From Paracoccus alcaliphilus (GTDB taxonomy: Bacteria > Pseudomonadota > Alphaproteobacteria > Rhodobacterales > Rhodobacteraceae): a stretch of 64,000 nucleotides of DNA. The notes under the pieces are model-generated. The model made no database searches. It was not told the DNA's origin and was given only the letters and a program-made list of their open reading frames with translations. The stretch's first letter is position 1; the number at the start of each line of letters is the position of its first letter. Location: contig NZ_CP067124.1 in assembly GCF_028553725.1 (NCBI RefSeq), forward strand, positions 2,552,001 through 2,616,000, written 5' to 3'. Both the position numbers and the translations under genes were made by a program. This document shows positions 5,794-59,884 of this stretch, piece by piece.

Positions 5794-5802
5794 GGTGATG
5801 TG

Positions 5803-6261
5803 ATGGCGGGAATGAAATCATTGAAGAAACGGCGCCGCGTTCAGGTTCTGGCCGCCGCCGCCGTGGCGCTGCTGATCGCGGTGGTGCTGATCGGATATGG
5901 ATTTCGCGACGGCATCAACCTTTACCGCTCGCCCTCGCAGGTGACCGAGGCCATGCCCGACCCTGACGAGTATTTCCAGCTGGGCGGACTGGTCAAGGAT
6001 GGCTCGATCGTCGAACGCGACGGGGTCCGGTTCGATTTCGTCATCACCGACGGGGTGGCGGAAATCCCGGTCAGCTATACCGGGGCCGAGCCGCGCCCGG
6101 ACCTGTTCACCGAAGGGCAGGGCACCATCGCCAAGGGTTGGTACCGCAATGGCCGCTTCGAGGCGCGCGACCTGCTGGCCAAGCATGACGAGAATTACAT
6201 GCCGCGCGAGGTGATCGACACGCTGAAGGCCACAGGCGTTTACGAGGAACCCACGACCTGA
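5803..6261 (+). CDS. ccmE: Cytochrome c maturation heme chaperone CcmE
   Basis: 152 residues from ATG 5803, with GAGG (5792-5795) overlapping the murI stop; ATG 5812 is an alternative. CcmE is a membrane-anchored periplasmic protein that binds heme covalently through a histidine and passes it to CcmF/CcmH. Seen here: a basic N terminus KKRRRVQVL, one transmembrane segment (about 13-33), the beta-barrel domain, and the heme-binding His128 in LAKHDENYMP. The partner genes ccmF and ccmH lie 2-5 kb away on the opposite strand, separated by the lysis pair and paaG. Confidence 0.95.
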   Translation: MAGMKSLKKRRRVQVLAAAAVALLIAVVLIGYGFRDGINLYRSPSQVTEAMPDPDEYFQLGGLVKDGSIVERDGVRFDFVITDGVAEIPVSYTGAEPRPDLFTEGQGTIAKGWYRNGRFEARDLLAKHDENYMPREVIDTLKATGVYEEPTT

Positions 6262-6281
6262 CCCCGGCAACGCACGGCGGG

Positions 6282-6297
6282 TTAACGAAAGGTTAAC
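6282..6297 (+). promoter_or_regulatory. CtrA-binding box (TTAA-N7-TTAAC) upstream of the lysis genes
   Basis: TTAA (6282-6285), seven bases, then TTAAC (6293-6297) is a perfect match to the full CtrA consensus. It sits 21 bases after ccmE and 57 bases before the endolysin ATG, where a promoter is expected. The same bases form a GGTTAAC/GTTAACC inverted repeat. In Rhodobacter capsulatus, CtrA controls GTA production and lysis genes, so this fits the two genes downstream. Binding is inferred. Confidence 0.7.
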
Positions 6298-6353
6298 CGG
6301 CCCGCGCCACCCTTGGGCGCTCCGCCATTCCGGCGGGGTGCAAAGGGGGTATC

Positions 6354-6965
6354 ATGCAAAGCGTGGAAGAGATCGCGGCGGGGATCGTGGCGCGTGAGGG
6401 GGGCTATGTCGATGATCCGGACGATCCGGGCGGGGCGACCAATTTCGGCGTGACCATCGGAACGATGAAGACGCTGGGGCTGGATCTGAACCGCGACGGG
6501 CGCATCGACAAGCAGGATGTGCGGGCGCTGACACGGACGCAGGCGCAGCAGATATTCGTCGAGCATTACTTCACCCGACCGCGTCTGGCCGAACTGCCGC
6601 AGATGGTACATGCCAGCGTTTTCGACATGTATGTCAACGCCGGAACCAATGCGGTCAAGATCCTGCAACGGCTGATCACCCGCATGGGATTCGCCGCGAC
6701 CGCCGACGGCATTGTCGGGCCGAACACCATCGCCGCCGCCCATGATGCGGGTCGTGCCGCGCCGCTGCATCTGGCTGATGCCTATGGGATCGCGCGGCGT
6801 AACTATTACTATGCGCTGGCCGATCAGCGCCCGGCCAGCCGCAAATATGCCCGCACCAAGGCAGGCGGCAAGGGCGGCTGGATCACCCGGGCCGAGGAAT
6901 TCATCGCCCCGCGCTACCACCTGACCGAGGCCGAACATCGCGAAAGGACCGCCAAATGGGCCTGA
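6354..6965 (+). CDS. GTA/phage-type N-acetylmuramidase endolysin (glycoside hydrolase 108)
   Basis: 203 residues. The catalytic signature REGGYVDDPDDPGGATNFG with Glu15 marks family GH108, followed by a C-terminal peptidoglycan-binding domain of the PG_binding_3 type (about 100-190). It cleaves the glycan backbone to release particles. It has no signal peptide, so it needs a holin, and the next gene, overlapping by 10 bases, encodes one. In R. capsulatus the gene transfer agent uses such an endolysin/holin pair located outside the structural cluster. No capsid or tail gene occurs here, so an isolated GTA lysis unit is more likely than a prophage. A CtrA box lies upstream. Confidence 0.88.
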   Translation: MQSVEEIAAGIVAREGGYVDDPDDPGGATNFGVTIGTMKTLGLDLNRDGRIDKQDVRALTRTQAQQIFVEHYFTRPRLAELPQMVHASVFDMYVNAGTNAVKILQRLITRMGFAATADGIVGPNTIAAAHDAGRAAPLHLADAYGIARRNYYYALADQRPASRKYARTKAGGKGGWITRAEEFIAPRYHLTEAEHRERTAKWA

Positions 6966-7873
6966 TCGACCGATTTCTGGGCGCCGCGCCCACCGTCACC
7001 GCGCTTGGCAGCGCCGCATCTGGCATGGCCGAGGTCTTTACCCGTAACGCCACAAGGCAGATGGAGCTGAACGAAGAGGCTTATGCCCGTGCCATGGTCC
7101 AGATGGGGCAGGAGTTCCAGCAGGTCAGGCCCGGGTTCTTCGACTGTTTCGTCAATGGGCTGAACAGGCTGCCCCGACCGGTTCTGACATTGGGCACGTT
7201 GGGGCTGTTCGTCTATGCGATGGTCGAGCCTTTCGGCTTCAGCGTCAGGATGGAAGGGTTGCAGACCGTGCCCGAGCCGTTGTGGTGGCTGTTGGGCGCG
7301 ATCGTCAGCTTCTATTTCGGGGCGCGAGAGGCGCATTATTTCCGCGACCGGGTCTGGACCCCACGCCCGGCACCTGCCGCCACGGTGGCACCCGCCGGGG
7401 CGACCGTGGCGCGGCCGGACGATGATTTCGCCGACAATGCGGCGCTGCGCGACTGGCTGAACAGTCTGCACGATCAGGCGGATCAGCGCCCCCGAAACCG
7501 GGGTTTGCGCTTTTCCAGAAAGGCCGTGACGCCCTCGGTGAAATCCGCGCTGCGTCCGGCCTGCCCCTGCAATTCGGCCTCAAGCGCCAGTTGCGCATCC
7601 AGATCATTGCCGGAACTGGCCCGCAAGGCGCGGCGGATCGCTCGGTATGCCAGCGTCGGTCCCTGCGCCAGATGCCGCGCCCGCGTGCTGACGCCCTCGG
7701 CAAAATCCTCATCCGGCAGGGCCTGCCAGATCAGGCCCCAATCGGCGGCCTGCCGCGCCGGGACGGCATCGGCGAACAGCATCATCCCCGCCGCGCGCGC
7801 CATGCCGATGGCGCGGGGAATGGCCCATGTCCCGCCCGCATCCGGGATGAGCCCGATGCGGGTGAATGCCTGA
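6956..7873 (+). CDS. GTA-type holin (3TM family) with abnormal antisense C-terminal extension
   Basis: Start ATG 6956 overlaps the endolysin stop by 10 bases. The first 175 or so residues fit the 'holin of 3TMs, for gene-transfer release' family: a region after MGLIDRFLGAA, then two strong hydrophobic segments LTLGTLGLFVYAMVEPFG and EPLWWLLGAIVSFYFG, then an Ala/Pro linker and DNAALRDWLNSL. It should form lesions that let the endolysin out. Family proteins are usually under 200 residues; here the frame stays open for 305, the last 130 being Ser/Arg/Ala-rich and exactly antisense to paaG. The true stop may have been lost or shifted near 7455-7490. A functional end near 7480 is my guess. Confidence 0.7.
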   Translation: MGLIDRFLGAAPTVTALGSAASGMAEVFTRNATRQMELNEEAYARAMVQMGQEFQQVRPGFFDCFVNGLNRLPRPVLTLGTLGLFVYAMVEPFGFSVRMEGLQTVPEPLWWLLGAIVSFYFGAREAHYFRDRVWTPRPAPAATVAPAGATVARPDDDFADNAALRDWLNSLHDQADQRPRNRGLRFSRKAVTPSVKSALRPACPCNSASSASCASRSLPELARKARRIARYASVGPCARCRARVLTPSAKSSSGRACQIRPQSAACRAGTASANSIIPAARAMPMARGMAHVPPASGMSPMRVNA

Positions 7874-8253
7874 ATGAACTGGGCGCTTTCGATGGCAATC
7901 ACCACATCGGCCACCAGCGCCAGATTGGCCCCGGCACCCGCCGCCACGCCATTGACCGCCGCAATCACCGGCACCGGGCAATCCACCACCGCACGCAGCA
8001 TCGGTTCATATTCGCGCCGCAGCGTGCCCTCCAGATCCTGCGCCGCCGCCGCATCGGTCAGATCCTGACCCGAACAGAAGGCCCGGCCCTCGCCGGTCAT
8101 CACCACGCAGCGGGTATCGGATGACAGCCCGGTCAGTGCCGTGACGATCTCGGCCCGCATCTGGCTGTTCAGCGCGTTCATCACCTGCGGACGATTCAGG
8201 GTCAGCGTGGCGACGCCGTCGTTTTCGCTGAACAGGATGGTCTCGAATCCCAT
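7483..8253 (-). CDS. Enoyl-CoA hydratase/isomerase, PaaG-like
   Basis: 256 residues of the crotonase fold. The oxyanion-hole segments GRAFCSGQDL (about 57-65) and NGVAAGAGANLALVAD (101-116), and Asp138 in GLIPDAGGTW, follow the layout of PaaG, the ring-epoxide/oxepin isomerase of phenylacetate breakdown. Glutamates of ordinary hydratases are not conserved in the PaaG pattern. No other paa genes are in the window, so it may instead be a general 2,3-enoyl-CoA isomerase. Its 3' end overlaps the overlong holin frame on the other strand by about 390 bases. Start ATG 8253 with a modest ribosome site. Confidence 0.85.
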   Translation of the reverse strand: MGFETILFSENDGVATLTLNRPQVMNALNSQMRAEIVTALTGLSSDTRCVVMTGEGRAFCSGQDLTDAAAAQDLEGTLRREYEPMLRAVVDCPVPVIAAVNGVAAGAGANLALVADVVIAIESAQFIQAFTRIGLIPDAGGTWAIPRAIGMARAAGMMLFADAVPARQAADWGLIWQALPDEDFAEGVSTRARHLAQGPTLAYRAIRRALRASSGNDLDAQLALEAELQGQAGRSADFTEGVTAFLEKRKPRFRGR

Positions 8254-8328
8254 GATCTTCCCCCTCTTTTGCCGCCATGATGCCGTAAAATGCAGCGGGG
8301 GAAAGCGCGACCCGGCGTCATTGCCGGA

Positions 8329-8796
8329 TCAATCGCGCATGATCTCATCCAGACGGGCGCGTTCATCCTTGCTGAGCGCCTGCGTCGCCGGCACCTCGGC
8401 CCGGGCGCGGGCCCGCAGGAAACCCCATGCGACCAGCAGCGCGATCAGCGCCATGAGCGGACCGGCCAGCCACAACAGCAGATTGCCGCCGCTGGCCCGG
8501 GGCTCGAACAGGACGAATTCACCGAAGCGGTCGGCGACATTGTCCAGCACCTCGGCATCGCTGTCGCCCTCGACCAGCCGTTCGCGCACGTAAAGCCGCA
8601 GGTCGCGGCTGATCGCGGCGTTCGATTCGTCGATATTCTCGCCCTGACAGATCGGACATCGCAGCTTTTGCGACAGGGCGCGGGCGCGGGCCTCCAGTCC
8701 GGGGTCGGACAGCACCTCGTCGGGTTGCACAGCAAGGGCAGGCGTGGTCAGAGCGAACAGCAGGGTCAGGGCAAGGCCGGTTTTGCGCATCGTCAT
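8329..8796 (-). CDS. ccmH: Cytochrome c maturation protein CcmH
   Basis: 155 residues. A signal peptide (1-22, ending TPALA) exports the domain carrying LRCPICQGE (Cys47, Cys50), the thioredox pair that reduces apocytochrome c cysteines before heme ligation; a transmembrane helix (about 106-127) anchors it. The short C terminus shows the CcmH/Ccl2 form without the TPR half (CcmI). Its ATG overlaps the ccmF stop as ATGA, indicating translational coupling in a ccmF-ccmH unit. Confidence 0.94.
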   Translation of the reverse strand: MTMRKTGLALTLLFALTTPALAVQPDEVLSDPGLEARARALSQKLRCPICQGENIDESNAAISRDLRLYVRERLVEGDSDAEVLDNVADRFGEFVLFEPRASGGNLLLWLAGPLMALIALLVAWGFLRARARAEVPATQALSKDERARLDEIMRD

Positions 8797-10757
8797 TCCG
8801 CCGGGACCGCATCGGCATTACTGCGCCGCGCCGCGCCTGCCGCCACGCGATAACGCCGGTCGCTGAGGCTGATCAACCCGCCAAGCGCCATCAGGAACGA
8901 ACCCATCCAGATCCAGTTGGCGAAGGGCTTCAGATAGGACCGGACCGCCCAGCCGCCGCTGCTTTGCGGATCGCCGATCACCAGATAGAGGTCACGGAAC
9001 AGCCCGCCATCAATCGCGGCCTCGGTGGTCGGCATCCCCTGCACCGGATAGATGCGCTTTTCCGGATGCATGATCGCGACCGGCCGCCCGTCGCGCGTGA
9101 CCTGCATCGTCGCCATGGTCGAGATATAATTCGGCCCCTCGACCTCGGCCACTTCGGTCATGGTTACGGTATATCCGGCAAATTCAAAGGGTTCGTTCAG
9201 ATGGGCGACGCGGATATCCTCGACCTGCCAGGCGGTCAGCAGGCTGACGCCGATGAAGGTCACGCCCATCCCGGCATGGGCCACCGCCTTGCCCCAGTCG
9301 GCGCGCGGCAACCGCCACAACCGGGACAGGCCGGAATTGCCGGTGCGGTGGATCAGGTCGGCCACCGATCCGGCAATGATCCATGTACCCAGTCCGGCCC
9401 CGATCACGGCAATCGCCGAACGCCCGGTGGACACCGCAAAGATCAGCAGGGTGACGGCTGCGGTAAAGATCAGTGCCCCGCGCAGGGGTTTCATTATCCG
9501 CGACAGCGTGGCGCGTTTCCATGGCAGCATCGAACCGAGCGGCAGGGCTATCGCCAGCACGATCATGAAGGGCGTGAAGGCCTTGTTGAAGAATGGCGGC
9601 CCGACCGACAGCTTGCGATCCCAGACCATTTCCGCGATCAGCGGCCAGACCGTGCCGATGAAGACGACAAAGGCCGAAACCGCCAGCAACACATTGTTCA
9701 GAACCAGCGACCCCTCGCGCGAGACGGGGGCAAAGACGCCCTTGGCCGTCATCTCGCTGGCCCGCGCGGCATAAAGCGTCAGCGCCCCGCCGGTAAAGCC
9801 GGCAAGGATCGCCAGAATGAACACGCCGCGCTGCGGATCGCTGGCGAAACTGTGGACCGAGGTCAGCACGCCCGAGCGCACGATGAACGTCCCGATCAGC
9901 GAAAACCCGAAGGCCATGATCGCCAGCAGGATGGTCCAGCTTTTCAGCGCCTCGCGTTTTTCGACGACGATGGCGGAATGCAGCAGCGCGGCGGCCAGAA
10001 GCCATGGCATGAAGCTGGCATTTTCCACCGGATCCCAGAACCAGAAGCCGCCCCAGCCCAGCTCGTAATAGGCCCACCACGACCCCAATGCGATGCCGAT
10101 GGTCAGAAACACCCAAGCCGCCAGTGTCCATGGCCGCACCCAGCGCGCCCATGCGGCATCGACGCGACCCTCGATCAGGGCGGCGACGGCAAAGCTGAAG
10201 GCCATCGAAAGCCCGACATAGCCCAGATAGAGAAACGGCGGATGGAAGGCCAGGCCGGGGTCCTGCAACAGCGGGTTCAGGTCGCGCCCGTCGAAGGCCG
10301 GTACGGGCATGCGGATGAACGGGTTCGAGGTGAAGATGATGAAGGCATAGAAGGCAGCACCGACCGAGGCCTGTACCGCCAGCACCCGTGCGCGCAGGCT
10401 GGGCGGCAGGTTGCCGCCCCAGACCGCCGCCGCCGCACCGAACAGCGCCAGAATCAGCACCCACAGCAGCATCGAGCCTTCGTGATTGCCCCAGACGCCG
10501 CTGATCTTGTAGATCATCGGCTTCAGACTGTGCGAATTGTCATAGACCAGCTTGACCGAGAAATCCGAGGTCACGAAGGCCTGCGTCAGCGCCGCGAATG
10601 ACAGGCAGACCAGCAGGAATTGCGCGATGGCGGCGGGGCGGGCGCTGTCCATCCAGCCCTCCCATCCCTTCGCCGCGCCGATCATCGGCACGACCATCTG
10701 GTAAAGCGACAGGGCAAAGGCCAGGATCAGGGCGAAATGGCCGAATTCTGCTGTCAT
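8793..10757 (-). CDS. ccmF: Cytochrome c heme lyase subunit CcmF
   Basis: 654 residues, a polytopic inner-membrane protein. The WWD domain WGGFWFWDPVENASFMPWL is intact, with flanking conserved histidines (for example FHPPFLYLGYVG) that ligand heme. With CcmH it attaches heme from CcmE to apocytochrome c. Length and about 15 hydrophobic segments agree with the family. It is followed directly by ccmH. A 127-base gap separates it from the Nudix gene upstream, room for its own promoter. Confidence 0.96.
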   Translation of the reverse strand: MTAEFGHFALILAFALSLYQMVVPMIGAAKGWEGWMDSARPAAIAQFLLVCLSFAALTQAFVTSDFSVKLVYDNSHSLKPMIYKISGVWGNHEGSMLLWVLILALFGAAAAVWGGNLPPSLRARVLAVQASVGAAFYAFIIFTSNPFIRMPVPAFDGRDLNPLLQDPGLAFHPPFLYLGYVGLSMAFSFAVAALIEGRVDAAWARWVRPWTLAAWVFLTIGIALGSWWAYYELGWGGFWFWDPVENASFMPWLLAAALLHSAIVVEKREALKSWTILLAIMAFGFSLIGTFIVRSGVLTSVHSFASDPQRGVFILAILAGFTGGALTLYAARASEMTAKGVFAPVSREGSLVLNNVLLAVSAFVVFIGTVWPLIAEMVWDRKLSVGPPFFNKAFTPFMIVLAIALPLGSMLPWKRATLSRIMKPLRGALIFTAAVTLLIFAVSTGRSAIAVIGAGLGTWIIAGSVADLIHRTGNSGLSRLWRLPRADWGKAVAHAGMGVTFIGVSLLTAWQVEDIRVAHLNEPFEFAGYTVTMTEVAEVEGPNYISTMATMQVTRDGRPVAIMHPEKRIYPVQGMPTTEAAIDGGLFRDLYLVIGDPQSSGGWAVRSYLKPFANWIWMGSFLMALGGLISLSDRRYRVAAGAARRSNADAVPAE

Positions 10758-59587: not shown

Positions 59588-59860
59588 ATGGCACATAAGA
59601 AAGCAGGCGGTTCGTCCCGCAACGGTCGCGATTCGGCCGGTCGCCGTCTTGGCGTGAAACTGTATGGCGGTCAGGAAGCGATCGCCGGCAACATCATCGT
59701 GCGTCAGCGCGGCACCAAATGGTGGCCGGGTGACAATGTCGGCATGGGCCGCGACCACACCCTGTTCGCGCTGAGCGACGGTCAGGTGGCCTTCAGGAAG
59801 GGCCTGAAGGGTCGCACCTATATTTCGGTCATGCCTGCGAATTTCGAAGCCGCCGAGTAA
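59588..59860 (+). CDS. rpmA: 50S ribosomal protein L27
   Basis: 90 residues, [16 protein letters not shown] with no Staphylococcus-type prepeptide, then [19 protein letters not shown] and [15 protein letters not shown]. Ribosomal peptidyl-transferase site protein. Co-transcribed with rplU, ending in a strong hairpin. Confidence 0.98.
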
Positions 59861-59884
59861 CCCAGGGTTAACAATTCATTGTTA

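Follow-up and report, generated by a model that had tools for sequence, protein, structure and literature searches.

A gene-transfer-agent-type lysis gene pair in Paracoccus alcaliphilus with a conserved CtrA-type box and a covarying leader hairpin

In Rhodobacter capsulatus, induction of the endolysin of the gene transfer agent (GTA) RcGTA requires CtrA as well as GafA, the latter of which binds to the lysis promoter (PMC6363796), where putative CtrA half-sites have been described (PMC9638019). The lysis genes rcc00555 and rcc00556 of this agent, an endolysin of the GH108 type followed by a holin, are located outside its structural cluster. A second relevant system is gene e of bacteriophage T4, which encodes lysozyme: in long transcripts coming from upstream a helix hides the ribosome site, while short transcripts born at the gene's own promoter lack the 5' strand of this helix and are translated (PMC3014915). 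The third is the temperate Paracoccus phage vB_PkoS_Pkon1, which integrates into, and disrupts, the gene for an OmpR-family regulator, with attB GTTTCTCAA(G/C)CAT (PMC6536676). How a lethal lysis gene of phage origin can be carried in the chromosome without killing cells by accident, and what restricts commitment to GTA release to a small fraction of cells, are open questions.

Here, we describe a lysis gene pair in a window of 64,000 nucleotides of Paracoccus alcaliphilus DNA (contig NZ_CP067124.1, positions 2,552,001 to 2,616,000). Like rcc00555/rcc00556, it consists of a GH108-type endolysin gene and a holin gene, is separate from the structural cluster and is preceded by a CtrA-type promoter site. 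It differs in that Paracoccus has a full double box and not a half-site, and in that the genome containing the window has an inverted block of ccm genes, an extended holin frame and a split ctrA gene. From the sequence comparisons presented below, we infer that it is a further lysis cassette of the RcGTA kind, with a double CtrA-type box at the level of the genus and an RNA feature found throughout the family. We think it probable, though some way from assured, that the pair belongs to an RcGTA-type GTA and would be controlled by a CtrA-type promoter and an RNA catch acting in series.

The lysis gene pair and its neighbourhood

The endolysin gene (positions 6354-6965 of the window, forward strand) encodes a GH108 muramidase of 203 amino acids, with matches to PF05838 (Glyco_hydro_108, 94 bits) and PF09374 (PG_binding_3, 75 bits). 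The protein also belongs to NCBIfam NF040573, holin-associated N-acetylmuramidase, with 355 bits for a cut-off of 240. The gene for the three-transmembrane (3TM) holin follows on the same strand (6956-7873; PF11351, GTA_holin_3TM, 93 bits), its start at 6956 overlapping the endolysin stop, which ends at 6965. These family matches agree with an earlier note on this DNA, which had named a GH108 endolysin and a 3TM holin; the end of the holin frame, placed by the same note near 7480, has to be moved. The usual end would be at about 7480-7490, where the stop has been lost, and the open frame continues for a total of 305 amino acids up to 7873, running antisense through the ECH gene. In same-genus relatives, the holin stops at 164-220 amino acids in 29/29 loci.

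Upstream of the pair are murI and ccmE, the latter (cytochrome c maturation; 5800-6261, forward strand; PF03100 CcmE, 92 bits) being read in the same direction as the lysis promoter, with no space between them for a separate leader. Downstream, on the opposite strand, a block from 7483 to 10757 contains the open reading frames of ECH (7483-8253), ccmH (8329-8796) and ccmF (8793-10757). This orientation of ccmF-ccmH-ECH is the opposite of that in every relative in which these genes are present (25/29 loci of the genus and 60/80 loci of a named set, which overlaps with the other genome sets used). The edge of the inverted block coincides with the 3' end of the holin gene. The position inside a ccm locus had struck the earlier note as notable, but it is ordinary across the family: 27/30 loci from other genera have ccmE before the cassette and/or ccmF after it, read in its direction and within a stretch of 3.6 kb, and both genes flank it in 55 of the 80 named loci. 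Because the cassette occupies the ccm locus throughout the family, this is its usual place, an ancestral arrangement and not a peculiarity of this genome.

The earlier note had described the pair as GTA-type lysis genes apart from the structural genes, and had proposed a search of the genome for GTA capsid and terminase genes. Such genes are present: a structural cluster is located at C1:3.243-3.263 Mb, roughly 0.7 Mb away from the lysis genes, with the terminase gene at C1:3261695-3263098. Terminase, portal, prohead protease, capsid, connector, GTA-gp10, DUF2460 and baseplate hub all score over their Pfam cut-offs (8/10 cluster proteins tested, with one NlpC/P60 protein just below its cut-off and one protein without a match). 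A GafA-type regulator is encoded at C1:3089426-3089833 (DUF6456, 202 bits). Matches to GTA_TIM occur at three places of the genome, with 489 bits at C1:3251032-3251913. Further GTA_TIM loci, at C1:417653 and C1:499745 (L001, L003, L034 and L036), resemble prophages with GTA-like tails.

Analysis of 198 genomes of the family yields 165 with an endolysin above the cut-off and 174 with a terminase match at E 1e-30. If weak terminase matches are counted as absent, cassette and terminase are both present in 141 genomes, the cassette alone in 24, the terminase alone in 17 and neither in 16 (Fisher p 4.9e-5); if the weak matches are counted as present, these numbers become 154, 11, 20 and 13, respectively (p 5.6e-6). 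A strong GTA-type terminase match is thus missing in 24 of the 165 cassette-bearing genomes, and any match in 11. The 24 genomes would fit a reading in which the cassette is the leftover of a prophage lysis module, with a box that arose by chance and without connection to a GTA, but this reading is hardly credible. The NF040573/PF11351 pair is found at one conserved chromosomal place throughout the family, with promoter and box conserved, and its co-occurrence with the GTA terminase is significant. Furthermore, in R. capsulatus the presumed counterparts rcc00555/556 are needed for release of RcGTA (PMC3423380, PMC6209664).

The promoter region

The CtrA-type double box TTAA-N7-TTAAC (TTAACGAAAGGTTAAC) is located at positions 6282-6297 of the forward strand; it matches the pattern exactly and is conserved in the genus. 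The perfect box that the earlier note had seen ahead of the endolysin gene is therefore real, with its end 56 bases before the ATG at 6354. Having the form GTTAAC-N5-GTTAAC, it can also be read as a box on the other strand (6281-6296), and the window contains no exact match beyond these two strand matches. With one mismatch allowed, the window contains 3 box matches, where 0.47 are expected; a one-mismatch box, GTAACCCAGGGTTAAC, lies at 59857-59872. The whole genome contains 14 strand matches of the box, at 13 distinct places, versus 4 for the reversed control pattern. Among the frames nearest to these places is a gene for a YifB/ComM-type ATPase, with another TTAA-N7-TTAAC box (C1:3358475-3358490, L078) about 35 bp before it. 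ComM is linked to GTA uptake. The name comM has 0 occurrences in the text of PMC9765227.

Conservation of the box in close relatives, a check proposed in the earlier note, was analysed in 30 same-genus loci, the best 30 of the 36 genus genomes over the cut-off, own genome included. A perfect TTAA-N7-TTAA is present 57-79 bases before the start in 27/30 of them, the remaining 3 having one mismatch, and the loci, 102,167 bases in total, contain no further copy of the box. With the structural cluster present and the box conserved in close relatives, the GTA reading passes the sequence part of the refutation set out in the earlier note. Among the named loci, the double box is present in 36/38 from Paracoccus versus 0/42 from the others, and it occurs in 0/90 loci from 90 other genera, the best-scoring of the 165 cassette-bearing genomes. 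Judged by this distribution, the full double box is a trait of the genus Paracoccus, and the other genera keep one half-site.

When the loci of the 90 other genera are aligned at whichever TTAA is closest to the gene (7/90 have no TTAA in range), 83/90 show a single TTAA at rigid spacing from an upstream CGnACG element and from a downstream, -10-like A-N3-T. The CG is found at -18/-17 in 73/83 and TTAAC in 70/83, while A at +16 together with T at +20 is present in 60/83 of these loci and in 24/30 of the own genus. In the window, the upstream element is CGCACG (6271-6276, forward strand), within GCAACGCACGG (6267-6277) and at the fixed spacing to TTAAC. The predicted -10 element is CACCCT (6308-6313, forward strand), 10 bp downstream of TTAACC, of which the conserved A at 6309 and T at 6313 may be read as -11A and -7T. 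Such a spacing of 10 bp between site and -10 element is known for class II promoters of the OmpR/PhoB family. Transcription is predicted to start at +27, which is about position 6320 of the window. TTAACC was also considered as a plain -35 element, with the -10 element 17 bp on, and rejected, the base conservation typical of a -10 element being absent there.

A CGnACG-like sequence is also contained in the TTGAC promoter upstream of terL, in the GTA structural cluster, in 23/30 loci (a count without statistics). Because of this similarity to a GTA structural promoter, the CGnACG element may be a GafA site. The double box would be where CtrA binds. If the GafA-like element were to define an alternative core, in the position that it has in the structural promoter, the start would move upstream and the hairpin described below would be retained in the transcript. 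A search for the same TTAAC in the structural promoter was also made; TTAAC-N15-T is found upstream of terL in only 2/30 loci (L153 and L173), and a shared TTAAC was rejected.

The leader hairpin

The leader of the endolysin gene is predicted to form a hairpin (6310-6348, forward strand), in which 6310-6314 pair with 6344-6348 and 6317-6326 with 6332-6341. Its folding energy is -30.0 kcal/mol (z -4.7), and it covers the Shine-Dalgarno sequence AAAGGGGG (6342-6349). This hairpin, which the earlier note does not mention, is the feature of the region that tells most. Leaders of the other genera have a mean fold z of -1.95, versus -0.42 for the sequence just upstream (89 loci, one with an N having been dropped), and the 30 own-genus leaders one of -1.34, versus -0.15. 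No Rfam family matches positions 6100-6600 (0 matches to E 1).

As the arms of the hairpin do not align by column, an alignment of 40 leaders made with MAFFT for counting pairs was not used, and pairing was analysed by swapping arms. In this test, the 5' arm (-45..-22) of each of 90 genomes is combined with the 3' arm (-20..-1) of every other genome. The self combinations reach -14.33, compared with -11.32 for the permuted ones (z -10.5, 0/10,000), and three shifted pairs of arm windows give no signal (z +0.8 to +1.7). The 80 named loci give z -7.8, and those not from Paracoccus z -8.3 (0/5,000 each). In the own genus alone (30 loci), the arms are so similar in sequence that the swap is not significant (z -0.8). 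Of the control leaders in the same 80 loci, that of ccmF (z -3.7, or -1.5 outside Paracoccus) and that of ECH (z -2.9) show some self-pairing, less than the endolysin leader; it is absent from those of ccmE, murI and ccmH. An uninterrupted helix of at least 6 pairs is formed in 36/89 self pairs versus 9.7% of the cross pairs. The 3' arms comprise 88 distinct sequences among 89, so it is the pairing and not the sequence that is kept; an SD-like motif is present in 83/89. A few bases separate the hairpin from the ATG, and the loop varies in length.

These properties bear on a different interpretation, in which the inverted repeat is a DNA operator, for instance for GafA, and has no role as RNA. 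The repeat does lie within the promoter region, and binding of GafA to this region has been reported (PMC6363796, PMC9638019); a protein site, however, would be expected to keep its sequence, and here nearly every arm is different, the pairing is kept and the loops vary, which makes an operator very improbable. In the available parts of the same two papers a leader hairpin is not mentioned for rcc00555/rcc00556, and a limited literature search found no published hairpin or translation lock at GTA lysis genes. The covarying hairpin is thus a feature for which we found no earlier report, and it may act as an RNA safety catch on a GTA cassette of a known type.

The calculated cost of opening the ribosome site is consistent with such a role. 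In 82 other genera it falls from 15.1 kcal/mol in the read-through transcript to 5.9 in the predicted short transcript, compared with 7.7 to 6.1 for shuffled leaders; in the 30 own-genus loci it falls from 15.4 to 7.5 (shuffled 9.0 to 7.2), and in the leader of the window from 16.2 to 3.5. The drop is above the 95th percentile of the locus's own shuffles in 64/82 other-genus and 19/30 own-genus loci. When the assumed start is moved along the leader, the cost begins to fall at positions from +16 to +28. Since the cost drops at the predicted start, read-through transcripts would be silent and those born at the promoter would be translated.

In the mechanism that we propose, the pair serves the RcGTA-type GTA of the cell itself as its lysis cassette, long lodged between ccmE and ccmF, with two controls. 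The first would be the dedicated promoter, in which CtrA would bind 10 bp ahead of the -10 element, at a full dimer box in Paracoccus and at a half-site in the other genera, with CGnACG perhaps as the GafA site. The second would act on read-through from murI-ccmE: such transcripts would carry the complete hairpin with the Shine-Dalgarno sequence hidden, and would give no endolysin. Transcripts from the dedicated promoter would have their first base where the 5' arm ends, lack the hairpin and be translated. Translation of the holin would follow by coupling, as expected from the overlap of its start with the endolysin stop. With a covarying hairpin in about 90 genera, the proposal makes a testable prediction, namely that the start point of a transcript decides whether endolysin is translated. 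As in T4 gene e, a conserved helix of the long transcript contains the ribosome site, which here is seen by prediction and covariation. The lock of gene e has been measured and is combined with a phage late promoter, whereas here it is predicted, with a CtrA-type promoter, in a domesticated element and with a host ccm operon upstream.

A less elaborate explanation keeps the cassette as an ordinary CtrA- and GafA-dependent one and takes the hairpin as real, but as a terminator or attenuator of read-through, or as a stabiliser of the mRNA. One genus (L118) has a run of T after the hairpin, directly before the ATG, as in an intrinsic terminator, and the GafZ protein of Caulobacter is an anti-terminator (PMC11150451). 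By eye, no such run was noticed in the other leaders listed, however, and in most of them the 3' arm lies on the Shine-Dalgarno sequence, close to the ATG; a strong terminator would, moreover, cut off ccmF, which in many relatives follows the cassette on the same strand. We consider this explanation unlikely, although clearly less so than an operator.

The split ctrA gene and its prophage

The only CtrA-like gene of the genome is in two pieces on the same strand, encoding residues 1-177 and 169-225 and 40 kb apart. The first piece stops after 185 residues, so that the end of the DNA-binding domain is missing. No intact CtrA was found in the genome, the other response regulators having at most 35% identity over most of the query. 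Between the pieces (C1:2295249-2336509, L259-L261) is a prophage of about 40 kb, with phage genes including an integrase gene, and its junctions with ctrA share a 12-base core, AATGTTCCTCAA. With its only ctrA gene split, the box may be idle in this genome, and because the holin frame is extended as well, the lysis system of the isolate is probably impaired.

From this state one could go further and regard the cassette as dead in the isolate, a decaying relic here that is functional in the relatives. Apart from the split ctrA, the holin frame would support this, with 128 amino acids of antisense ECH fused to it and a length beyond that in any of the 29 relatives, as would the inversion, which is present in no other locus examined. 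Against it, the structural cluster and the gafA frame look intact, as do box and hairpin; the prophage could excise, and the longer holin tail may be harmless. We rate a dead cassette as a serious contender, with a chance somewhat below even. Of the CtrA control proposed in the earlier note, the conserved CtrA-type box stands, but working control in the isolate cannot be assumed, the sole recognisable ctrA being split by the prophage and the inversion having lengthened the holin frame. In the same way, its broader idea of CtrA-regulated, GTA-type lysis is upheld as to the pair, the box, the structural cluster and the need for CtrA and GafA in R. capsulatus (PMC6363796), and not as to a system at work in this isolate.

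The integrase of phage vB_PkoS_Pkon1 is 79% identical to that of the ctrA prophage, and the attB of this phage is close in sequence to the ctrA junction described here. The name ctrA has 0 occurrences in the text of PMC6536676, in which the target is given as an OmpR-family regulator; the two similarities point to ctrA as the gene concerned. If phages target ctrA, GTA release would be linked to the state of the prophage. This would be a switch comparable to the comK prophages of Listeria. A wider scheme, which we offer tentatively and believe to have the lesser chance of being correct as a whole, would combine both halves of this work. In it, an RNA lock present throughout the Rhodobacteraceae would guard the suicide gene of the GTA within a live housekeeping operon, and would be bypassed by the CtrA/GafA promoter alone, because transcription from it starts where the 5' arm of the hairpin ends. 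In Paracoccus, a family of temperate phages would use ctrA as integration site, and lysogeny would stop GTA release and the other functions of CtrA until excision.

The gene is split at the same codon in 6/123 genomes of the genus (123 with a CtrA match among 125); a genome with the second half only (G035) would be a seventh, and one in which the break is at a contig end (G316) was left out. An integrase 62-100% identical to that of the window genome is present in 5/6 of the genomes with a split ctrA, the sixth containing a fragment with 81% identity. Integrase matches occur in 16 genomes in total, the other 10 having identities of 31-44%. In five genomes the integrase gene is located 46-72 bases beyond the first half of ctrA, and in the window genome it is beside the second half.
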